The notes under the pieces were generated by a model, which was given only the letters and a program-made list of their open reading frames with translations, did no database searches and was not told where the DNA came from. Of a stretch of DNA of 20,422 nt, positions 1,022 to 17,861 are shown piece after piece. Within the stretch, counting starts at the first letter, position 1, and each line of letters starts with the position of its first letter. The DNA comes from a virus, in the IMG/VR virus record IMGVR_UViG_3300008450_000606, positions 1 to 20,422 of that record; one strand, written 5' to 3'. The translations under genes were made by a program, and so were the position numbers.

Positions 1022-1702
1022 ATGATAAAGTTAAAACAATTAATGGAGATAGTGACTGGTGAAGAGCAGTCTCGAGAAGAGTATGTACTCAGGCTATCAC
1101 GTGACATTGTTAACGCATTCAAAAGTGGAACTGCTAGATTCAAGGCTACCTTTGAATACTCACGAGGCGATGAGACCGCTGATATGCTTGTTGATATTAG
1201 GTTTATCAAGCGACCAAATCAAGAGCATGCATTCTCTATTGCTGCAGGGTATGGACCTAGAACTTTTGTTAAGAAGGATGAAGATGCATTGGAGATGACT
1301 ATTGAATACAATCCTAGCGCTTTTCCTAAAGCAATGAACGCATTTGTGGCGGAAGTTAAGGAAACTGTAGAGCATGAGTTTGAGCATGTTGGACAGCAAA
1401 ACTTTGAGGAATTTTACATTGTTTCCAATCGATACGATGAACCATTGGCTTATCCGGAAGAGGCTCCTCAAGCACCTAATCACTTTCTATATCTAACCAG
1501 TAATAGAGAGGTTCCAGCCTATGTGAAGGGTCTTTTGAAACGTGCTAAAGTTAGCAAAATGACCTTTGATCAAGCACTTGAAGACTACTATAATGACTAC
1601 AAATCTACGTTTGATTTGTATGGAACTAGCTGGCCTACAGTAAAGAAAACATGGAAGGATTGGGCTCTATCTAACAAGGATAAACTTAGAAAATTCTCAT
1701 GA
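1022..1702 (+). CDS. HExxH metalloprotease-like protein with capsid-targeting-like N-terminus
   Basis: This 226-residue protein starts MIKLKQLMEIV. The L7-M8-E9 fits the [L/I]-x-E cleavage consensus of T4 prohead protease gp21, and the leader resembles the T4 internal-protein targeting peptide (MKTYQEFIAE). Residues 118-122 read HEFEH, inside a helix-like stretch (EVKETVEHEFEHVGQ), which is the HExxH zinc-binding signature of metallopeptidases. The Glu in REVPAY (E163) could be a third zinc ligand. I infer a zinc peptidase packaged in the head and possibly injected with the DNA. The ATG at 1016 would add only Met-His; 1022 is preferred because the two following genes also begin MIKL. It overlaps the next gene by ATGA and heads a three-gene operon. 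Substrate unknown. Confidence 0.7.
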   Translation: MIKLKQLMEIVTGEEQSREEYVLRLSRDIVNAFKSGTARFKATFEYSRGDETADMLVDIRFIKRPNQEHAFSIAAGYGPRTFVKKDEDALEMTIEYNPSAFPKAMNAFVAEVKETVEHEFEHVGQQNFEEFYIVSNRYDEPLAYPEEAPQAPNHFLYLTSNREVPAYVKGLLKRAKVSKMTFDQALEDYYNDYKSTFDLYGTSWPTVKKTWKDWALSNKDKLRKFS

Positions 1703-2088
1703 TAAAGCTATATGATTTGTTGATTGAAACGGTGACTCAAGCGCAGCTAATGTCCCTAGAGCAGTACGCCGATAAGTTATTTGCTGCCGTAGGAATCGAT
1801 GTAGAATTCTCCGGACACTTCTTCAAACGAGTGAATGATCCCCGCAACTTAAAACCAATTTCTGACGCTGAGTTAATCGATATGTTTCAGAAAACCTACG
1901 AGAAGCATGGCAAGAAAATTGCGCAATTAGGACGTGATGCAGAGGCTGTAATTGTCGATATGCAGAAGGACATTAACATACCTTTCGTGCTACAATACAA
2001 CCCAAGATTACAGCAACTAGAGCTCATGTCTAAGACAATAATGCGCAAGAAAAACTTCCAAACTTCAAATCAAAAATTAACAGTATGA
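1699..2088 (+). CDS. Capsid-targeting-like protein, possible RelE/BrnT-type fold
   Basis: A 129-residue protein beginning MIKLYDLLIETVT, with L8-I9-E10 matching the prohead-protease cleavage consensus. The start is translationally coupled: its ATGA overlaps the stop of the preceding gene. The rest (HFFKRVNDPRN, then an ELIDMFQKTYEKHG helix, and a C-terminal strand ending SKTIMRKKNF) looks like a small alpha/beta protein conserved in marine T4-like phages. The His/Arg near the first strand and the short strands ending in a basic segment recall RelE/BrnT/DUF4258-type RNase toxins. That comparison is by pattern only and is weak. If the leader is cleaved, the mature protein would be about 119 residues inside the capsid. 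Confidence 0.65.
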   Translation: MIKLYDLLIETVTQAQLMSLEQYADKLFAAVGIDVEFSGHFFKRVNDPRNLKPISDAELIDMFQKTYEKHGKKIAQLGRDAEAVIVDMQKDINIPFVLQYNPRLQQLELMSKTIMRKKNFQTSNQKLTV

Positions 2089-2636
2089 TAAAGTTAAAAG
2101 ACCTTTTAGGCGAATCCTTTGGAGATGATTTTGGTAAAAACAAATGGATACAACTACCTAAGGATGCAGTTAAAAAGTACGCAGATGAGATTGTCGATCT
2201 CATTGTGTCAGCGTACGCTGCTAAGGGGGGAAACTTCGAATACAAAGATGCAGAGGATATTAAAAAATCAGATTTAGATTTTTGGATTGCTAACGATGTT
2301 GACACTGATCCTGAGATGGATTCTGTATTAGGTGGAAAGCGTTCTCGGGGTGGAGTAAAGGTGACTGTATTTGGTCAAGATGGCTCTAGTGCTGCAAAGA
2401 AGGTTGGTATTGTTCGCATGATAAACCTCATGAAGACTCGTGGATTCTATGCCGAATTAGATAAAGATTTAGCTCAAAAAATGGGCATGCCTTTTGTTAG
2501 TGATGAGGATGCTATTCGTAGAGTTCTCGGTAAAGAGATTAAGATGAATCCCGACGGAAGCTATGATAGAAAGTTGACGATGGGACCAGTAAAAACCAAA
2601 GTACTTGTAGGTATGCCCAACGTACCTAAAGCATAA
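2085..2636 (+). CDS. Capsid-targeting-like protein of unknown function, 183 aa
   Basis: It starts MIKLKDLLGESFG, with L8-G9-E10 as the predicted prohead-protease site, and its ATGA overlaps the previous stop. The remaining roughly 170 residues look globular and soluble: a helix KKYADEIVDLIVSAYAAKGG, a strand VKVTVFGQDGSS, a helix GIVRMINLMKTRGF, and a C-terminal GPVKTKVLVGMP strand. The first helix followed by K-G-G-N is somewhat like the N-terminus of GNAT acetyltransferases, but I see no reliable acetyl-CoA loop. It resembles uncharacterised proteins of other T4-like phages. It is the last gene of the operon; hairpins and a strong terminator follow within 75 bases. Confidence 0.65.
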   Translation: MIKLKDLLGESFGDDFGKNKWIQLPKDAVKKYADEIVDLIVSAYAAKGGNFEYKDAEDIKKSDLDFWIANDVDTDPEMDSVLGGKRSRGGVKVTVFGQDGSSAAKKVGIVRMINLMKTRGFYAELDKDLAQKMGMPFVSDEDAIRRVLGKEIKMNPDGSYDRKLTMGPVKTKVLVGMPNVPKA

Positions 2637-4255: not shown

Positions 4256-5371
4256 ATGAAAAATCTACCAAAAGAAGAACTATTAAGTAGACTTGAAGCA
4301 ATTAATAGAAGTAATGCTATTATTTACTTTGACCTTAGTGGTACTATATTAGGGGTTAATGATATTTTCTTAGAAGCTATGGGTTTTGGGAAAGGTAACC
4401 ACGATGATATCATTGGTAAACACCATAGCATTTTTGTATGTGAAGATTATGCAAGATCGCTTGAATACGAAAAGTTTTGGGACATATTAAGAAGCGGTAA
4501 ACACTATACTGGGGAGTTTGAGAGAAGAAAGAAGGATGGAAGTCTCATCAATCTCCAAGCAACTTATAATCCTATTTTTAATGAGGATGGTAAAATAACC
4601 AAAGTCATGAAAATCGCTACTGACGTTAGTATAATTGTCAATAGTAAGAAAAGAATAGATGCAATCAATAGAAGCACCGCTCTTATTAGTTTTAATATTG
4701 ATGGATTTATAACGGATGTAAATTCTATATTTTTAGAAACTATGGGGTATAAAGCCAATGAAAAAAATAAAGTCATTGGTAAACACCACAGCGTTTTTGT
4801 TAGCTACGAGTATTCAAAGTCTGATGAGTATGCTAAGTTTTGGGAAAGTTTGAGAAAAGGAAAGTTCTTTGATGGAATATTTGAGAGAAGGAAAGTAGAC
4901 GGATCTACTGTTTACTTGCAAGCATCTTATAATCCTGTAATGGATAGTAAAGGAAACATCACAGATGTAGTTAAAATTGCAACAGATGTTACTGACAGCG
5001 TTAACAATAAGAAGAGAGTAGAGGATCTTACAAATCATTTACAAGTAGAATTGGACAACTCTGAAAAGCTTAAAAACTCAATAGAGATAGAAAAGAATGC
5101 AGCTTTGAATGATTTAGATATAATAATGAAAAAAAGTCAGGGTGAGTTAATAAAAATAATTGTTAGAGTTGCATTAGCTGTTATAGTTGGAGTAGGAGTT
5201 GTAACAACAGTACTGTACTGGGCTGCTATTATGACCGGACAAGATACCCAAATAATAGGATCAACTTGGAGTAATATGTTCAGTGTATTATTAACAAATG
5301 CCTTTTCAATAGTAGGTACAATTATGGGTATCAAGTATGCTACTCAAGAAGGCAGTAAACAAACAAAATAA
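4256..5371 (+). CDS. Tandem-PAS membrane protein (PAS-PAS-coiled coil-2 TM)
   Basis: A 371-residue protein. Residues about 15-128 and 133-250 are two PAS domains of the kind found in bacterial energy and redox chemoreceptors: each has GKHHS(I/V)FV, then FW..LR.GK, F.ERRK.DGS, LQA.YNP and a closing KIATDV. The copies match at about 43 of 72 positions in their second halves. A coiled coil follows (about 253-300), then two hydrophobic helices (about 301-327 and 339-362) and a short polar tail. In chemoreceptors of this type such PAS domains precede a methyl-accepting output domain; here that is missing and a holin-like two-helix segment takes its place. It leads the putative lysis cassette, six bases before a holin-like gene. 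I infer a cytoplasmic sensor acting on the membrane or on lysis timing. Ligand (heme, FAD, other) unknown. Confidence 0.8.
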   Translation: MKNLPKEELLSRLEAINRSNAIIYFDLSGTILGVNDIFLEAMGFGKGNHDDIIGKHHSIFVCEDYARSLEYEKFWDILRSGKHYTGEFERRKKDGSLINLQATYNPIFNEDGKITKVMKIATDVSIIVNSKKRIDAINRSTALISFNIDGFITDVNSIFLETMGYKANEKNKVIGKHHSVFVSYEYSKSDEYAKFWESLRKGKFFDGIFERRKVDGSTVYLQASYNPVMDSKGNITDVVKIATDVTDSVNNKKRVEDLTNHLQVELDNSEKLKNSIEIEKNAALNDLDIIMKKSQGELIKIIVRVALAVIVGVGVVTTVLYWAAIMTGQDTQIIGSTWSNMFSVLLTNAFSIVGTIMGIKYATQEGSKQTK

Positions 5372-5376
5372 AGTGT

Positions 5377-5661
5377 ATGAAAAAGTTTTTTAGAGAATTA
5401 ATTTCAGATGACAACAGCATAAATGAGCAAGCATTTGTTGGAGTAATATCCTTTTTTGCGATGGTATTTGTGTTGCTAGTTGACGTAGTAACTGGTGTTT
5501 TTAGTAAAGAGTTATTGGTTAAAGAATTTATCTTTGATGGATTTATGATTCTTACGTTAGGTGCTTTTGGTATTACAACAGCAGGTAGGATAATGTCATT
5601 AAAGAAGAAAGCAGAAGAAAAGAAAGAAGAAGAAGTTACTAACGAAGAAGAAGTAGGCTAA
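5377..5661 (+). CDS. Holin-like small membrane protein
   Basis: A 94-residue protein: amphipathic N-terminus (KKFFRELISDDNSINEQ), hydrophobic helix 1 at about 20-40, helix 2 at about 51-72, and a strongly charged Lys/Glu tail (KKKAEEKKEEE). Two helices with a highly charged C-terminus, directly upstream of a lysozyme gene (two-base gap), is the normal arrangement of a phage holin. The N-terminal pattern resembles small proteins annotated as holins in phages of Bacteroidota, from recall. It would form the membrane hole that releases or activates the endolysin. An antiholin role is an alternative, because the PAS protein next door also has two membrane helices. Confidence 0.6.
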   Translation: MKKFFRELISDDNSINEQAFVGVISFFAMVFVLLVDVVTGVFSKELLVKEFIFDGFMILTLGAFGITTAGRIMSLKKKAEEKKEEEVTNEEEVG

Positions 5662-5663
5662 TT

Positions 5664-6122
5664 ATGAAAATAACTAAGACAGGTTCTAAAGGAATAGAAT
5701 TGATTAAATCATTTGAAGGTTTTAGAAGTAAACCTTATAAGTGCCCTGCAGGTGTTCCAACGATTGGATATGGTGCAACGTTTTACCCTAACGGAAAGAA
5801 AGTTACCATGGCCGATACTCCTATTACAGAAGAGATGGGTACAGAACTCCTTTTAAGTATGTTGGGAAGTTTTGAAAGATATGTAGACAGCTATTGTGTA
5901 GATACAATTACTCAAAATCAATTTGATGCATTAGTGTCCTTTGTTTATAACCTAGGACCTGCTAATCTAAAGTCCTCAACGCTATTAAAAAAAGTAAACA
6001 TTAATCCCGAAGATGAAACTATTCGAGTTGAATTTATGAAATGGGTTAAAGCTGGAGGTAAAACTTTGCAGGGGTTAGTTAAAAGAAGAACAGCAGAAGC
6101 TGATTTATATTTTGCAAAATAA
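5664..6122 (+). CDS. Endolysin, GH24 lysozyme (E-C-T active site)
   Basis: A 152-residue glycoside hydrolase family 24 muramidase that cuts the MurNAc-GlcNAc bond of peptidoglycan. The active-site region reads SFEGFRSKPYKCPAGVPTIGYG. E18 is the catalytic acid. C27 occupies the position of T4 lysozyme Asp20 (same nine-residue spacing) and T33 that of Thr26, so the triad is E-C-T; Cys at this place is common in GH24 enzymes. The conserved QNQFDALVSFVYNLG helix (85-99) and the C-terminal GLVKRRTAEADLY (137-149) are present. There is no signal peptide or SAR segment, so export would depend on a holin, which fits the gene just upstream. Length is normal for the family and no truncation is seen. 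Confidence 0.93.
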   Translation: MKITKTGSKGIELIKSFEGFRSKPYKCPAGVPTIGYGATFYPNGKKVTMADTPITEEMGTELLLSMLGSFERYVDSYCVDTITQNQFDALVSFVYNLGPANLKSSTLLKKVNINPEDETIRVEFMKWVKAGGKTLQGLVKRRTAEADLYFAK

Positions 6123-6132
6123 TAGATTAATT

Positions 6133-6945
6133 ATGGTACTTAAAAGAGGAGACAACAACGAAACAGTTAAAAAGATTCAAGCGTTTTTAGGCATTGAACA
6201 AGTGGGAAATTTTGGTCCCAAAACAGAGGAAGCAGTTAAAGCATGGCAAACTAAAAACGGCTTAACGGCTGATGGTATTGTTGGGCCAGCATCTTTGGCT
6301 AAGATGGGTATTACTGTAGACAGTAAACCTGCTACTTCAACTCCACCAGCTGCTACTAAATACACAGCAGCTCAAGTAAAAACTGCAGTAACATCTAAAG
6401 GATATAAGTGGTTTGAAGGTAAAGACTTAATGCTCAACATTATAGGAGTACGCAACTCTTCTACAGGTCAAAAGGTAACTAACCTATTTGATGATCATTT
6501 AACCTTAACCTACACTATTGAAGGGGTAGAGCATTTTCATTGTTGGCCAGCAACAACAGATCCAGGAACAAAGGGTGTGATGCAATATGGCAATAAAGCA
6601 GGTGTTGCACGTCTAGTTGAAGGCCAGTACATCAATTCACACATCATGCGTTTGCATGCTGGAAAGTATGAGGCTTTGGGTCAGAATAAGCCAGTTAAGG
6701 TGTTCCGTGATCCAAACAAAGATATGGTGTATGATGAAAAATCAATCCAAGAAGGAGTGTTCGGAATCAACATTCACAAAGCTGGAGCAGATTCAACTTA
6801 TGTAGAAAACTGGTCAGAAGGATGTCAGGTATTTAAGCGTGCGAAGGATTTTGAAGAGTTTATGGCAATTTGTCGCAAAGCAAAAGCAATCCATGGAAAT
6901 TCTTTTACTTACACTCTTATAGAGTCCTTAGACGTTAAAGCGTGA
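6133..6945 (+). CDS. Peptidoglycan-binding protein with L,D-transpeptidase-like Cys motif
   Basis: A 270-residue protein from ATG 6133; a TTG start at 6112 would overlap the endolysin and is less likely. Residues about 3-60 form a PG_binding_1 domain (LKRGDNNETVKKIQAFL, FGPKTEEAVKAWQTKNGL, DGIVGPAS), which binds peptidoglycan. A Pro/Thr/Ala linker follows (about 65-80). The C-terminal domain contains GINIHKAG and, sixteen residues after that His, WSEGCQVF. The His...S-x-G-C spacing recalls the YkuD L,D-transpeptidase active site (H...SHGC), though the usual SHGCxR is altered. It is probably a second cell-wall-active lysis enzyme or a cell-wall-bound protein. It overlaps the next gene (GTGA). 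No signal peptide. Confidence 0.75.
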   Translation: MVLKRGDNNETVKKIQAFLGIEQVGNFGPKTEEAVKAWQTKNGLTADGIVGPASLAKMGITVDSKPATSTPPAATKYTAAQVKTAVTSKGYKWFEGKDLMLNIIGVRNSSTGQKVTNLFDDHLTLTYTIEGVEHFHCWPATTDPGTKGVMQYGNKAGVARLVEGQYINSHIMRLHAGKYEALGQNKPVKVFRDPNKDMVYDEKSIQEGVFGINIHKAGADSTYVENWSEGCQVFKRAKDFEEFMAICRKAKAIHGNSFTYTLIESLDVKA

Positions 6946-7358
6946 AGCTAACCCACTTACTAATCGAAATTGAGACCAAATGTCCTGCAGCAACGCAGGA
7001 CATTGATCTTAATTTGGAGAATCGTCAGAAGGCGATTGACAAGTATCACTATGGTCCTGCCAATCCAGATGAACCAGGTTCTTACTGGAAAGATGCTGCT
7101 AAAGATTGGAAGGTTAGTGAAGCCACAGCAAAGACCATGAAGTGTGGTAACTGTGCTGCTTTTGATGTTTCAGATAAAATGAGAGATTGTATGGCAAAGG
7201 GTATTCAAGGCAAGGAAAAGCATGCCGACGCTTTGGCAACAATCGAAAAAGCTGACTTAGGTTACTGCAATTTTCTCCATTTTAAGTGCGCTGGCAATCG
7301 CAGCTGCGCTGCTTGGGTAACCGGTGGAGCGTTGGATGATAAAGATCGTACACAGTAA
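6942..7358 (+). CDS. Cys-rich protein with capsid-targeting-like N-terminus
   Basis: A 138-residue protein starting at GTG 6942, overlapping the previous stop by four bases. The N-terminus MKLTHLLIEIE carries L7-I8-E9, the same [L/I]-x-E site at the same place as the three proteins at 1022-2636. Downstream are seven Cys (14, 68, 71, 83, 109, 116, 122). The conserved-looking core is KCGNCAAFDVS, then GYC, then FKC..NRSC, followed by AAWVTGG, likely binding zinc or an iron-sulfur cluster. The Cys core resembles proteins seen in T4-like cyanophages, function unknown. Its place at the end of the lysis cassette may be incidental; by its leader it would be packaged in the head. Confidence 0.7.
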   Translation: MKLTHLLIEIETKCPAATQDIDLNLENRQKAIDKYHYGPANPDEPGSYWKDAAKDWKVSEATAKTMKCGNCAAFDVSDKMRDCMAKGIQGKEKHADALATIEKADLGYCNFLHFKCAGNRSCAAWVTGGALDDKDRTQ

Positions 7359-7366
7359 TATTTATA
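7359..7366 (+). promoter_or_regulatory. TATTTATA late-promoter-like box 4
   Basis: Exact TATTTATA immediately after the TAA at 7356-7358 and ten bases before the ATG at 7377. It would drive the virion fibre-like gene, a typical late product. Confidence 0.6.
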
Positions 7367-7376
7367 CTAAAAACGC

Positions 7377-8216
7377 ATGGCAGTCATAAATAAAACCGGC
7401 ATCACAAATGGTGGTACCATACAAGCAGAACATATTACAAGAGCAATCGATGCTCTAAGTGGTGTCGGTACTGATACCCTTATAGCAACTGGATCGTTTT
7501 CTGGTTCGTTTACTGGAACAGTTACTTCTGCTTCATTTGCAACATCATCGTCGCTTTCTGTTTCTGCTTCCCTTTCGCAAACAGCCTCTGTAATATCTGT
7601 TACCGATACAACTTCTGGAACAGGACCTTATTATGTTACCTTTACAGACGGAACTACTGGTACAAGAGTTCTACGAGTCGATTCTAATACTAATGCACTT
7701 GCATTTAATGCAACAGCAAACACATTATCAACAACAGCTTCTAGAGCTAACAGTGCTCTAAGCTCTTCGTATGCCGTAACAGCATCATATGCTCTTAATG
7801 GTGGAGGTGGTACCCAAAAAGACACAACAACTCTTACATTCTTTCACGCGGAGGTTACTAATACTACTTCCGGAAGTATATTGTATATAGGTGGATTTCC
7901 TGCAGCGCCAATAACTAACGTAGCTAGGATAGGTTTAGTTGTGCCGTTTACTGGTACAGTAACTAATACACAGGTAACATCCTACGCATCTGATCCCGAA
8001 ACTGCAACAATCGATCTAGATTTAATGAAAAATAGTACTCTTGTAGACAAAATCGCTACTGCACTTGATTTAAGTGCATTTATAAGCTCCGAGTATACTA
8101 ACGATGTCGCGTATGATGTAAATGCTGGTGATGTTCTTAATATTCGAATAATACAGAATACCACAAGTAATGCTGTATGGAATGTCAATGTTGGTATCGT
8201 AATTAAACGTGATTAA
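7377..8216 (+). CDS. Ser/Thr-rich virion fibre or appendage protein
   Basis: A 279-residue protein. The N-terminus (MAVINKTGITNGGTIQAEHITRAI) resembles attachment segments of phage fibre proteins. From about 38 to 145 the sequence is dominated by short Ser/Thr/Ala/Gly repeats (GSFSGSFTGTVTSASFATSSS, then TASRANSALSSSYAVTASYAL), as in beta-structured trimeric fibres of phages of Bacteroidota. A Gly-rich break (NGGGG, 141-145) leads to a C-terminal beta-sandwich-like domain of about 130 residues ending IVIKRD, possibly the receptor- or glycan-binding head. It sits alone behind its own late-promoter-like box. Assignment as a virion surface protein rests on composition and repeat style, not on a catalytic motif. 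Confidence 0.7.
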   Translation: MAVINKTGITNGGTIQAEHITRAIDALSGVGTDTLIATGSFSGSFTGTVTSASFATSSSLSVSASLSQTASVISVTDTTSGTGPYYVTFTDGTTGTRVLRVDSNTNALAFNATANTLSTTASRANSALSSSYAVTASYALNGGGGTQKDTTTLTFFHAEVTNTTSGSILYIGGFPAAPITNVARIGLVVPFTGTVTNTQVTSYASDPETATIDLDLMKNSTLVDKIATALDLSAFISSEYTNDVAYDVNAGDVLNIRIIQNTTSNAVWNVNVGIVIKRD

Positions 8217-8257
8217 CGATCGTAGGTTATTGTTGTAATAAATTGTATATTAAAACC

Positions 8258-8473
8258 ATGTGCTATAGCAGTGATCGTTTAGATGAAATTATGTACAAAG
8301 CCTACAACCTAGGAGTGCAGGATTTAGTATTCGATAAGGTTACAGAACTTAGTACAAGTACTAAAATATACGATACACATAGCCGAGCGCAAGTTTATGA
8401 ACAAGCATTTAATCTAGTTACAAATGGAGACACAAAGCAAAGTGGAGATACTTCTCCAACCCGACCAGCTTGA
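8258..8473 (+). CDS. Hypothetical protein, 71 aa
   Basis: A soluble 71-residue protein beginning MCYSSDRLDEIMYKAYNLG. The ATG at 8258 is preferred to the TTG at 8243. The two helices (LDEIMYKAYNLGVQDLVFDKV and RAQVYEQAFNLV) look like a small helical protein of a kind often found in T4-like phages; function unknown. Its last 50 bases overlap the start of the phosphoribosyltransferase gene in another frame, which is long for this genome. The polar tail after NLVTNG looks non-conserved, so the overlap probably affects only tail residues. Confidence 0.6.
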   Translation: MCYSSDRLDEIMYKAYNLGVQDLVFDKVTELSTSTKIYDTHSRAQVYEQAFNLVTNGDTKQSGDTSPTRPA

Positions 8474-8963
8474 CGATATCGCATACGGTGTCGCAAACGC
8501 AATCAACGATCTTTACGAAGAACAAACAATTGAAGTAGAGCATGAAATAGTATTCTGTCCTATCCTTCAAGGTGCAGTTCCCTTCTTTGTAGATGTATGT
8601 AAGTACACTCTCATTGAACCGTTTGTTGATTACATTGGTATTTCATCTTATGAAGGACAAGAGCAAAAAGAGTTTAATGTATACAAAATGCCCGACGCTA
8701 ATCTGGTAAAAGGAAAGACTGTATGGCTGTTTGATGACATTGCTGATAGTGGTAAAACTTTGGAGTTTCTAAAAACAACCTTAATGTCTTTTGGTGCTAG
8801 AGAAGTAAAAACTTGCGTACTACTTAAAAAGCAATCTTGTCCTTTCCCAGTAGATGTATACGGCTATGAGCTGGAAGATGATTACTGGGTGTGGGGTTAT
8901 GGTATGGATGCACCAAACGGTCGCAGTCGCACATCTAGCATACTGTTAGGTGAAAGAAAATAA
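8424..8963 (+). CDS. Hypoxanthine-phosphoribosyltransferase-like enzyme
   Basis: A 179-residue type I phosphoribosyltransferase. Residues 43-50 (VFCPILQG) match the HPRT first-loop region, SSYEG (74-78) matches the HPRT flexible loop (SSY), VWLFDDIADSGKTL (100-113) is the PRPP-binding motif, and YGYELEDDYWVWGYGMD (146-162) corresponds to the base-binding segment near the C-terminus. In cells, HPRT converts hypoxanthine or guanine with PRPP to IMP or GMP, so this would support purine salvage for phage DNA synthesis. The ATG at 8424 overlaps the previous gene by 50 bases; a GTG at 8442 gives a start closer to the family core. A divergent phage PRTase with another base specificity is possible. 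Confidence 0.85.
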   Translation: METQSKVEILLQPDQLDDIAYGVANAINDLYEEQTIEVEHEIVFCPILQGAVPFFVDVCKYTLIEPFVDYIGISSYEGQEQKEFNVYKMPDANLVKGKTVWLFDDIADSGKTLEFLKTTLMSFGAREVKTCVLLKKQSCPFPVDVYGYELEDDYWVWGYGMDAPNGRSRTSSILLGERK

Positions 8964-11714: not shown

Positions 11715-12025
11715 TATATGCAGTTATTATACTAACCATAATGGTAGCCATATTAGGCTACCTAGTCTATGCTAACTACAAGAAAGCACAACGAGCTGCA
11801 GATTACTGTGAAGCTTATGTTAGATTTATCTCTGCACTATTTTTCAAATTCAACGATACAAGAGATCGTATGAAGGAAGTGGATCGCTTAGGAGCGTTTC
11901 AAGCAGACGATGAGGTGGGTTTTATTTTTAGAGAGCTAGACGAATCAATTGAAGATTTATATGAATTTATTACAAAGTATGTCAACACAACAGAAACCGA
12001 AGAAGACAAGAAAGCCAAAGACTAA
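11711..12025 (+). CDS. Membrane-anchored hypothetical protein, 104 aa
   Basis: A 104-residue protein whose start overlaps the stop of the HD-domain gene (ATGA). One N-terminal membrane helix (residues 2-22, IYAVIILTIMVAILGYLVYA) is followed by a helical cytoplasmic part (AADYCEAYVRFISALFFKFNDTRDRMKEVDRLGAF) and the acidic ADDEVGFIFRELDESIEDLYEFI. The same pattern occurs, from recall, in a small protein found in T4-like cyanophages; its function is unknown. Its end overlaps the start of the late sigma factor gene by 47 bases, which implies translational coupling. Confidence 0.65.
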   Translation: MIYAVIILTIMVAILGYLVYANYKKAQRAADYCEAYVRFISALFFKFNDTRDRMKEVDRLGAFQADDEVGFIFRELDESIEDLYEFITKYVNTTETEEDKKAKD

Positions 12026-12710
12026 AAGAATGTACTTCGGTCCGGAAGTTGATTTAGCGATCGTAGAGTATAATCAAACTATGGACTCACTTGAGCGAAG
12101 TAAGATTTATCAATATCAAATTAGACCCGCCTTTGAGAAGCTAGTAGAGAACATTATTCACACGTTTAAGTTTTACTACACTGCCGATCAATCCATGCAA
12201 CAAATGCAGCATGAAGTGGTAAGCTTTCTAGTTGAGAAGCTTCCAAGATTTCAACAAAGCAATGGGAAAGCTTTCAGCTACTTTAGTATTGTAGCCAAAA
12301 ACTATTGCATTCTAAAAAACAAAAACAACTACAAAAAGCTAACTAGTCATGACCGACTTGACGTGGGAGTAGATCTAGTAATGGATACAACTGCTGCTGA
12401 CATCGAAGAGAGAGAGGCATTACTGAGCGCGTTTGTTAACAAGTACGTTGATTATTTAGATACACGAATCGATGACATATTCACAAAGCAGAGTGATCGA
12501 GTTTTAGCTTATGCAGTATTGCATTTATTCAAGACACGCGAGTCTATCGAACTATTCAATAAGAAGGCTTTATACATCTATGTGCGTGAAATGTCCAATG
12601 CAAATACTCAGCAGATAACAAAGATGGTTAAGTTTATGAAGGATAAATATAGGCTAATGTATAACGATTATTTGCACCTAGGTTATTTACCAAAAGACAA
12701 AGAGTATTAA
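11979..12710 (+). CDS. 55: Late-transcription sigma factor, gp55 family
   Basis: A 243-residue protein from ATG 11979; the ATG at 11949 would add residues inside the neighbour. It has a basic N-terminus (KPKKTRKPKTKRMYFGPEVDLAIVEYN) and then a sigma-region-2-like helical core (about 45-120): FEKLVENIIHTFKFYY, HEVVSFLVEKLPRF, GKAFSYFSIVAKNYCILKNKNNYKKL. This matches the gp55 proteins of T4-like marine phages; T4 gp55 itself is shorter (185 residues). In T4, gp55 binds host RNA polymerase core, and with gp33 and the sliding clamp gp45 starts transcription at TATAAATA late promoters. Here it would read the TATTTATA boxes, an inference. The C-terminal extension (about 150-243) is helical and of unknown role. 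It ends in a TAATG overlap with the next gene. Confidence 0.85.
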   Translation: MSTQQKPKKTRKPKTKRMYFGPEVDLAIVEYNQTMDSLERSKIYQYQIRPAFEKLVENIIHTFKFYYTADQSMQQMQHEVVSFLVEKLPRFQQSNGKAFSYFSIVAKNYCILKNKNNYKKLTSHDRLDVGVDLVMDTTAADIEEREALLSAFVNKYVDYLDTRIDDIFTKQSDRVLAYAVLHLFKTRESIELFNKKALYIYVREMSNANTQQITKMVKFMKDKYRLMYNDYLHLGYLPKDKEY

Positions 12711-14445: not shown

Positions 14446-15411
14446 ATGTCAGGACCACCACCAATAGTACAAGCTGGCTTTGCAGCAGAATGCAAAGAGG
14501 TAGCAGATATGGTTGATAAGAACTACGAAAAGCTAGTACAAACCCTAGTATCAAGTGCTTTAACCTCTGCCGGAATCGAACCACGCATCCGTGTGACTAC
14601 TTTAATGAAAATGTGTCAAAGCTTTGTAATCCCGCAAGTTCAAAAGTTTGAAGGAGGATGGGGAGATCACCCTAACGACTCCGGAGGACCAACAATGCGG
14701 GGTGTAATCTCATCTACGTTTCAAGGTAACTACAATAGGTTATTTATTGAAATACCAAAAAAGGCAGGCCTAAATGCAATTGCAGTAAAAGCTGAAGCAC
14801 TTGCTAAAAAGTATCCAAATGTACGAGGTGGCGATAGGCGAGGCGAGCACGTCAAGGGTGCGCTATATACGTTTAACACTAGTCATAAAGTAGCATCTCT
14901 ATTTATTTGGAATGGCCTATCTAAGGCTGAAACCGGATACCCTATTGCCGTAATGGCCGAGGATGCTTGGCTTGGTTACATACAATTTGAAATGTGCTGG
15001 GGTGGTGGAGCAGGATCGGTATTTGGTACCGGTAAGGCATCATACGATGGTGTTGCTAAGAAAAAGTATGGACGAGTTGCGATGGGTGCTAAGGGATGGG
15101 TAAAGTGGATATCGCAAACACTAGGACCATCCAAGACGCCAGCATTTGCTGTTGACTGCTTTGCATCTCAAGTCGATTTCTATGATAGGATTAGTCGTCC
15201 TGGAAGTAAGAATAACACATTTCGTAAGGGATGGTTTAATCGCTTAATAAACTGGCCAACATCCGATTTGAAAATGTGTATTATTTTGAATGAAGTATTT
15301 AACAAAAACGTCAAAGGTATGTTTGAGTTTAATGAGAAGGAGACTGAGTTTCTAACTCAAAAAGCTAAGATATATGAGTCAATGACTATAAATTACCCTA
15401 CCGGAGGATAG
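14446..15411 (+). CDS. Tail lysozyme, GH108 muramidase with PG-binding domain
   Basis: A 321-residue tail-associated cell-wall hydrolase. Residues 64-87 hold VQKFEGGWGDHPNDSGGPTMRGV, the GH108 (ZliS-type) active-site signature with catalytic E69 followed by the conserved DxxDxGGxTxxGV. Near the C-terminus FYDRISRPGSKNNTFRKGWFNR (245-266) is the PG_binding_3 pattern that normally follows GH108. Inserts between the two (about 100-200, with Gly-rich GGGAGSVFGTG) make it longer than a typical 180-residue enzyme. The first 55 residues are a helical extension, perhaps for docking to the hub. It cuts peptidoglycan locally as the tail penetrates. It lies between two gp5-like genes with gaps of 3 and 1 bases. 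Confidence 0.85.
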   Translation: MSGPPPIVQAGFAAECKEVADMVDKNYEKLVQTLVSSALTSAGIEPRIRVTTLMKMCQSFVIPQVQKFEGGWGDHPNDSGGPTMRGVISSTFQGNYNRLFIEIPKKAGLNAIAVKAEALAKKYPNVRGGDRRGEHVKGALYTFNTSHKVASLFIWNGLSKAETGYPIAVMAEDAWLGYIQFEMCWGGGAGSVFGTGKASYDGVAKKKYGRVAMGAKGWVKWISQTLGPSKTPAFAVDCFASQVDFYDRISRPGSKNNTFRKGWFNRLINWPTSDLKMCIILNEVFNKNVKGMFEFNEKETEFLTQKAKIYESMTINYPTGG

Positions 15412-16397: not shown

Positions 16398-17861
16398 ATG
16401 GCAAACTTAAAAGACAAATTAGGACAAGTACCAGGCGGATCGGCAGTCGTATTGATAGAGGGCTTCACGCTATTTTCTCGTATGATTGAGGCTTTGAAAA
16501 GGGATAAGGGAGTTGAGTTAAAGGTAGAACAAAGCTACTTATCCAAGTTTGAAGTAGTTGACGAGCTAAGAAAAATTGCTAAGAATAAAGAAAAGGAAGG
16601 TTATGCAAACCTACTAGATCCTAAAGCAAAGATTGAGGATATACTAGGAGTAAAACCACCAGCAACAGCACCATCCGGATCTGCAACTCCAACAACGGGT
16701 TCAGCAGCTTCGGGTTCAGCTGCGACAGGGTCTGCAGCACCAGTACCAACTGCTCCTGCATTTCCAGAAGGGTCTTATGAAAAGCTTGAGACTTACATTA
16801 AAGGATTGGGAGCGGATGAGTTTGAGCCACCACTAAAATCATCATTTCAGAGCTCACAAGAAAACTTTCCAATTGTACAATATCCAAATAAACCAGGATT
16901 AGATCCAAGACAGACTGCAAATTTATTTATATTAGGTCCTGCAGAAAATATTAAACCAGACGTACTAAACTGGATATATAACAACAGTGTTCTTTATGGC
17001 TTCTTACCATATGGTAACCCTCAAACGTCAGCAGTTTACTACATTGGCGTTGAGAAGCTGAAAGCCAAAGTAAAAGCCGAGGAGAGTGTGATTAAGGTTG
17101 TATCAATCTTCCTACAACAACAGCTATCACCAGACATTGTAACTCAAACGGTAGACAAAGTATTAACACACAACCTAAATGGAGGAGCGGAGTTTTTGGA
17201 TCCAGGAAACCTAGATGAAGTAGTAACTGAACTACAGGACAACGACAAGCAGGTAATACCATGTGTAGTTATTCCGGGAGAGAGTGATAAGGTTGTAAGA
17301 TATGATGTTGCAGTGGCCTATGTAGCAATGAAGGCAGCAGCAGCTAAAGATGGTGTTACGCTGGCAATAGGATCAGCATTCCGTCCAGCCTTTGGAGATA
17401 TTGCTACAGCAACAACAAAGAGCGGAAAAAAGGTAGGACTAACATCTCAATATTCTATCCGAAAGAGTAGAGCTCCAGGTAAGGGAGAAAACCACTGGCT
17501 TAATGCAGCATCAAGTGCATACAACGCCGCAGTAGCTCCTCCAGGTAAGTCACAACACGGAAATGGAAGAGCATTAGACTTAAACACAGGGGGTTATTCT
17601 AGCTATCCTGCAGCACCCTTTACGCAGGGAGGGAAGATTATGCAATGGTTGGCTGAGAATGCTCATAGATTTGGATTTCTAAGAGCGGTAGCATCTGAAG
17701 CGTGGCACTGGGAATACTATCCACCAAACAAACCAACCAAAAGCGGAAAAAGTAGTACAACTGGACCATACACAATTGTAGCAAAGTCAAACTCACAATG
17801 GGGTCCATATGGTAATGTGGATTGGCAATCTAAAGGAGGATTCGCAGGGTCCGCATCATAA
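16398..17861 (+). CDS. Virion-associated VanY-type peptidase (D-Ala-D-Ala carboxypeptidase family)
   Basis: A 487-residue protein. The C-terminal domain has the zinc peptidase motif of the VanY/M15 family: SAFRP (326-330), SQHGNGRALDL (385-395) with zinc ligands H387 and D394, and EAWHWEY (434-440) with catalytic E434 and ligand H437. It would cleave peptide cross-links or stems in peptidoglycan. The N-terminal 85 residues are helical; a GSA-rich repeat linker spans about 92-115; a middle domain (about 125-260) is unassigned, with NWIYNNSVLYGF reminiscent of the WLAENAHRFGF helix in the VanY domain. Its place beside tail lysozyme and baseplate genes suggests a tail-tip enzyme working with GH108 during entry. 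The start at ATG 16398 follows the prior stop by 13 bases. Confidence 0.8.
   Translation: MANLKDKLGQVPGGSAVVLIEGFTLFSRMIEALKRDKGVELKVEQSYLSKFEVVDELRKIAKNKEKEGYANLLDPKAKIEDILGVKPPATAPSGSATPTTGSAASGSAATGSAAPVPTAPAFPEGSYEKLETYIKGLGADEFEPPLKSSFQSSQENFPIVQYPNKPGLDPRQTANLFILGPAENIKPDVLNWIYNNSVLYGFLPYGNPQTSAVYYIGVEKLKAKVKAEESVIKVVSIFLQQQLSPDIVTQTVDKVLTHNLNGGAEFLDPGNLDEVVTELQDNDKQVIPCVVIPGESDKVVRYDVAVAYVAMKAAAAKDGVTLAIGSAFRPAFGDIATATTKSGKKVGLTSQYSIRKSRAPGKGENHWLNAASSAYNAAVAPPGKSQHGNGRALDLNTGGYSSYPAAPFTQGGKIMQWLAENAHRFGFLRAVASEAWHWEYYPPNKPTKSGKSSTTGPYTIVAKSNSQWGPYGNVDWQSKGGFAGSAS

Follow-up and report, generated by a model that had tools for sequence, protein, structure and literature searches.

A predicted zincin-like metalloprotein behind a capsid-targeting-like leader in a phage from metagenomic sequence

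Introduction

What does a small phage protein do when it joins an HExxH motif to a leader of the kind that loads proteins into phage heads, and where would it act? Phage T4 injects a few packaged proteins (Alt, IPs). The locus that raises the question lies at positions 1022-1702 of a 20,422-nt stretch, IMG/VR record IMGVR_UViG_3300008450_000606, which is a fragment and is referred to here as the window. The original prediction, made from the letters of this stretch, described a possible packaged metalloprotease that could disable a host defence or regulatory protein at the moment of infection. Zincins injected with phage DNA have already been predicted in polyvalent proteins (PMC5512222), and no description of CTS-tagged packaged zincins was found in the literature searched.

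A single HExxH protein with a short leader

The open reading frame encodes a 226-aa product whose N-terminus reads MIKLKQLMEIVTGEEQ. An in-frame ATG is present at 1016, two codons 5' of 1022, but it is missing in an 83% identical relative (L001), and 1022 is therefore the likely start. The features of the gene are as follows.

1022..1702, + strand: predicted zincin-like protein with leader, 226 aa plus stop (open frame; family HMM built without it, E=1.8e-10)
1022..1048, + strand: leader MIKLKQLME, residues 1-9, capsid-targeting-like, with a predicted prohead-protease cut after E9 (L-M-E) (shared tag; disordered in the model)
1373..1387, + strand: HEFEH, residues 118-122, predicted zinc site and catalytic Glu (82/82 conservation; helix 101-124)
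1508..1510, + strand: E163, predicted third zinc ligand (82/82 conservation; first residue of helix 163-177)

This is the only HExxH among ATG-started window ORFs of at least 60 aa. The protein has only four His, its composition leads one to expect 0.007 HExxH motifs, and such a motif appeared in 0.6% of 20,000 shuffles. Searches of Pfam and PHROGs with the window protein gave no family match of its own, and phmmer against the PDB returned chance-level matches.

A domain conserved among highly diverged relatives

As a query, the window protein recovered one IMG/VR relative (L001) and, weakly (E 0.07), the C-terminal part of a protein from Flavobacterium phage Immuto. The Immuto domain, used as the query in turn, recovered at least 80 IMG/VR loci. 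From its matches we built a family HMM that left out both the window protein and the L001 relative; it scored these two at E=1.8e-10 and 2.5e-9, respectively, and the best of 20,000 shuffled copies at 0.12. Because the single-sequence search gave E 0.07, the link between the window protein and Immuto is secure only with the family HMM. Scans of bacterial genomes confirmed no relative, a weak test in that confirmation was made against one sequence.

The two His of the motif, both of its Glu and the distal Glu (H118, E119, E121, H122 and E163) are invariant in 82/82 aligned sequences; the 82 sequences do not represent as many independent events, since the phages behind many of the 80 loci are close relatives. 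In window numbering the invariant positions also include S26, P102, K113, Y157, A166, G170, A175, K176, Y189 and W211, and 50 non-redundant rows yield the same set as the 82-sequence alignment. Most family members are about 20% identical to the window protein, and retention at that level indicates strong constraint on both zinc-ligand His, the catalytic Glu and the third ligand. The original prediction named homologues without either His or the Glu as its refutation; none occurs in the alignment.

The Immuto protein (QQO91862.1; L004, 3871-6594) has 907 aa and carries the family domain at its C-terminus. Its name, NMN adenylyltransferase, comes from a weak nucleotidyltransferase part, and its two HExxH domains are unannotated. 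Fused relatives (L006-L062 and others, e.g., L023 and L033) likewise combine a HEMIHH and a RHEIEH domain in one polypeptide, with an [L/I/M]xE site at the domain junction and, in many cases, a leader like MNSLVKSLIQPILE.

An AlphaFold model of the window protein (50 alignment rows; mean pLDDT 76.8, pTM 0.73) features, in order, a helix at 18-34, four strands, the HExxH helix at 101-124 and a helix at 163-177 that starts at E163; the loop at 127-151 is poorly predicted and the leader is disordered. In the model of a standalone 214-aa homologue (L063; pLDDT 91.7, pTM 0.87) the elements follow one another in the same order, and the leader, residues 1-11, is again disordered. In both, an N-terminal helix is followed by a small beta sheet and two catalytic helices, the order given for zincin-like peptidases by Iyer et al. 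2017 (PMC5512222). The helical placement of HEFEH foreseen by the original prediction is thus confirmed, and the motif and E163 lie on two conserved helices behind the sheet. In the structure comparison that it proposed as a check, the VIA-align rows are mostly HExxH zincins, including aminopeptidase N and relatives, thimet oligopeptidase, IrrE, BlaR1 and anthrax lethal factor, but the scores are weak (Z of 5.1 or below; the best are 5.1 and 4.8), and Foldseek against the PDB gave no significant match for either model. For this reason we use "zincin-like" on the joint basis of motif, conservation and topology. On that basis the product is very probably a zincin-like metalloprotein, and there is a reasonable likelihood that it is an active peptidase.

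A leader shared by unrelated proteins

The next two ORFs downstream begin with closely similar residues, MIKLYDLLIE and MIKLKDLLGE, and each start overlaps the preceding stop as ATGA. The additional window genes with such leaders are as follows.

1699..2088, + strand: second tagged gene, MIKLYDLLIE, 129 aa (PHROG 23027, E=4.7e-23; tblastn)
2085..2636, + strand: third tagged gene, MIKLKDLLGE, 183 aa (tagged homologues in L001, L113 and L176)
6942..7358, + strand: gene with a loosely related leader, MKLTHLLIE, GTG start, 138 aa (the L001 homologue begins MNLKHLLIE)

The domain of the 1699-2088 product is also found at the C-terminus of SmphiM12_458 of Sinorhizobium phage phiM12, in Methylophilales phage Melnitz and in Immuto gene 191 (T4-like isolates).

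A degenerate DNA pattern of the tag matched at least 120 IMG/VR stretches, several with two to four consecutive matches. ORFs in these loci, together with those of the window and L001, constitute the tagged set. Among the matches listed, the 178 tagged ORFs form 94 clusters (65 with a single member) that share no BLAST similarity apart from the tag, and 90 of the 178 starts overlap or abut the stop of an upstream ORF. The leader Glu of the window protein is at residue 9 (L7-M8-E9), one shorter than the commonest form, in which it is at 10. Of 37 independent ORFs that start with MIKL without matching the seed pattern, 31 have Glu at one of these two positions (21 at 10 and 10 at 9), and E9 is thus a common variant of the tag. 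Larger contigs reached through distant relatives of a tail protein belong to phages without tags, and a search of open-licence literature for the tag strings found no paper.

Synonymous codons within the tag vary as they do in gene bodies, save for an excess of AAA at codon 5. Since they are free to vary, selection is mainly on the tag peptide, and on the same grounds we rejected an explanation at the RNA level.

Targeting positions, cutting sites and the prohead protease

The 10 N-terminal residues of T4 IPIII are enough for head entry; positions 4 and 7 of the CTS serve targeting, positions 8 and 10 serve cutting, and gp21 cuts after L/I-X-E (PMC9026906). The T4 leaders compared here are MKTYQEFIAE of IPII and IPIII and MAKINELLRE of the vertex protein gp24. 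The pattern MIKLKxLLxE is likewise hydrophobic at 4, 7 and 8 with Glu at 10.

Predicted cutting sites are not confined to N-termini. The Immuto-type domain starts directly after [L/I/M]xE|GRYD in 60 of 61 distinct contexts, and the sequences upstream differ, being either a leader or another domain. The first residue of this site is L or I in 45 of the 61 against a background of 14%; in 15 it is M, always within a single Immuto-like type. In three relatives of the window phage reached through window gene 11949-12710 (L275, L279 and L280), the tag is joined directly to the domain as MIKLSRLLIE|GAYD. Three loci fetched by the tag alone show the same arrangement: MISLSKLIVE|GRYD, MISLKTLILE|GRYD and MISLKHLIIE|GRYD.

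Peptidase S77, the T4 gp21 type, is encoded by Immuto and, in two sets of contigs with tagged or family loci, by 8 of 12 and 10 of 19. It occurs in one of 10 contigs from near relatives of the window, a 91-kb one, the other nine being fragments; none was found in the 20-kb window or the 53-kb G001, both fragments. Five long genomes carry the fused two-zincin gene 13-19 kb upstream of S77, both on one strand.

The putative packaging tag of the original prediction thus gains strong support from comparison, through the 94 unrelated clusters and the [L/I/M]xE junctions. We consider the leader probably a packaging signal. Because it is of the T4 head-loading kind, the protein probably travels inside the particle and enters the cell together with the DNA.

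Diversity of tagged cargo

Pfam assigned tagged cargo to superoxide dismutase (L130), RimK-like ATP-grasp (L198), zeta toxin plus NT5C (L113) and, in L001, a beta-lactamase-fold protein. A bulk Pfam scan added Mom, NUDIX, HD, GNAT and ADP-ribosyltransferase exoenzyme domains, with one member each. Further tagged HExxH proteins are encoded in L001 (7090-7842, HESLH), L122 (weak MPTase-PolyVal, DUF6782) and L100 (weak M56). The superoxide dismutase gene (L130, 2455-3084, minus strand) has the related leader MKLKKLIEQ and shares its contig with several tagged genes.

Between its second and third tagged genes, L001 holds three tagged genes that are absent from the window, and tagged cassettes are thus gained or lost as units at this locus. 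The insert (L001, 7090-9511) encodes the HESLH protein, the beta-lactamase-fold protein and a possible serine hydrolase, and the window counterparts of its neighbours are adjacent.

We judge it an evenly balanced question whether T4-like phages mainly known from metagenomes use the tag as a general, modular means of cargo delivery. Dozens of unrelated single-gene cargoes would be swapped behind one 10-residue peptide, and the two-zincin fusions would be polyproteins cut at [L/I/M]xE|GRYD into separate packaged peptidases. The cargoes named under this proposal are several kinds of zincins, superoxide dismutase, a beta-lactamase-fold hydrolase, and ADP-ribosyltransferase-like, RimK-like, Mom-like and zeta-toxin/nucleotidase proteins.

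Discussion

We propose, at about even confidence, that the window protein is a packaged zincin that the prohead protease releases from its leader and that, once ejected along with the DNA, cleaves a host protein. The N-terminal tag of 9-10 residues would draw the zincin-type metalloprotein into the prohead core, and the phage S77 protease would cut after (L/I)xE, at E9 in the window protein, to free the folded domain. The domain would then remain in the head beside the DNA, enter the next host on ejection and cleave a host protein, whether of defence or regulation, early in infection. We infer each of these steps, namely zinc, catalysis, packaging, cutting, ejection and target. Action on a host protein after ejection has an even chance at best, and the disabling of a defence or regulatory protein by the injected zincin is plausible. 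Four observations count against the packaged effector: the Glu at 9 rather than 10, the finding of S77 in only one near-clade contig and in neither G001 nor the window, the Mom-like, NUDIX and nucleotidase cargo that would be odd as injected proteins, and structural Z scores of 5.1 or below.

The main rival to an injected effector is action inside the head, with the packaged protein following S77 as another maturation protease, one that would trim scaffold or other core proteins. The fused relatives occupy a conserved place near head genes, 13-19 kb upstream of S77 in five long genomes, and maturation roles have been suggested for a jumbo-phage zincin (Iyer et al. 2021, PMC7824862). The gene of the window lineage, however, lies outside the head module in an array whose cassettes come and go, and its tag also occurs on proteins, superoxide dismutase among them, for which a head role is not evident; we consider this role unlikely. 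Zincin-fold proteins can be non-catalytic, and a packaged but enzymatically inert protein might use the fold for structure or binding, for example to bind a host nuclease without cutting it. Against such inertness, all 82 sequences keep E119, a residue required for catalysis alone, and we regard an inert protein as improbable.

That the protein stays out of the particle is distinctly unlikely as well. Its leader would then signal contact with a membrane or entry into another complex, with the protein at work in the infected cell, as might be expected from the several tagged cargoes that are ordinary intracellular enzymes. The tag in its commonest form nevertheless matches the T4 CTS rules position by position, the [L/I/M]xE junctions also separate fused domains, and S77 is present in genomes of relatives. 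Finally, HExxH is a short motif that could occur by chance in an unrelated protein; its rarity in shuffles (0.6%) speaks against this candidate, its 82/82 conservation across very diverged relatives refutes it, and the probability left to it is negligible.

Returning to the packaged effector, one of the closest likenesses is to T4 IPI-IPIII and Alt, which also set an N-terminal leader of about 10 residues on otherwise unrelated proteins. As in the T4 CTS, most tag copies are hydrophobic at 4, 7 and 8 with Glu at 10 and contain the L/I-X-E cut motif, and T4 cargo, too, is partly enzymatic (Alt). The window system differs in its leader sequence, its zincin cargo, its far greater number of cargo types and the Glu at 9 in the present protein, and its packaging is one that we infer. 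Within the family, the window protein shares with the C-terminal domain of the Immuto protein and its IMG/VR relatives the HMM match, HExEH and the distal Glu, and in the relatives a preceding [L/I/M]xE. The Immuto type is usually fused behind a second HExxH domain, whereas the window protein is single-domain and about 20% identical.

MPTase domains of phage and plasmid polyvalent proteins have HExxH, a Glu on the second helix and a proposed co-entry with DNA (PMC5512222). Polyvalent proteins are multidomain, whereas the window protein is a standalone tagged single domain of 226 aa (fused relatives exist). ImmA/IrrE-type peptidases (M78) feature HExxH followed by ExxA(N), as in relatives of the window protein, and IrrE is among the structural rows (Z 4.3); that match is weak and tied with many other zincins, and Pfam gave no M78 match.

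The HELQH proteins of Rak2-like jumbo phages (Serratia BF_0319, CBB_321 and ENKO_351) are HExxH proteins of about 530 aa annotated as virion structural. Their leaders end in LxE or IxE, and most start M-x-Y-x-Q-[LI]-x-E. ENKO_351 is recorded as identified by LC-MS/MS; CBB_320 and CBB_322, which flank CBB_321, are in the CBB virion proteome, and CBB_321 is absent from that table (PMC5259590). Foldseek gave a hint to one member (E 1.1e-3), a hint of fold only, and profile comparison of the window family with this one found no homology (probability 1.5%). Because that comparison was negative, we treat the Rak2-like family as a parallel rather than a relative.

If the packaged-effector reading is true, a 10-residue tag makes it possible to read from sequence what protein cargo many uncultured phages bring into their hosts. 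It would also yield a set of candidate effectors of the first minute of infection that can be tested directly, and several of these have enzyme sites that can be recognised.

Other leaders and window genes are recorded here as separate observations. A run of small ORFs in G001 (4532-8716; L214) has other repeated leaders (KKRLMELA... and MKLRELKxIIKEEV...) that are perhaps head-targeting. In the window, 4256-5371 encodes a protein with two PAS domains and a hydrophobic C-terminal stretch, which is unusual for a phage. The products of 16398-17861 and 14446-15411 feature a VanY carboxypeptidase domain and a GH108-like domain, and an additional lysozyme is encoded at 5664-6122.
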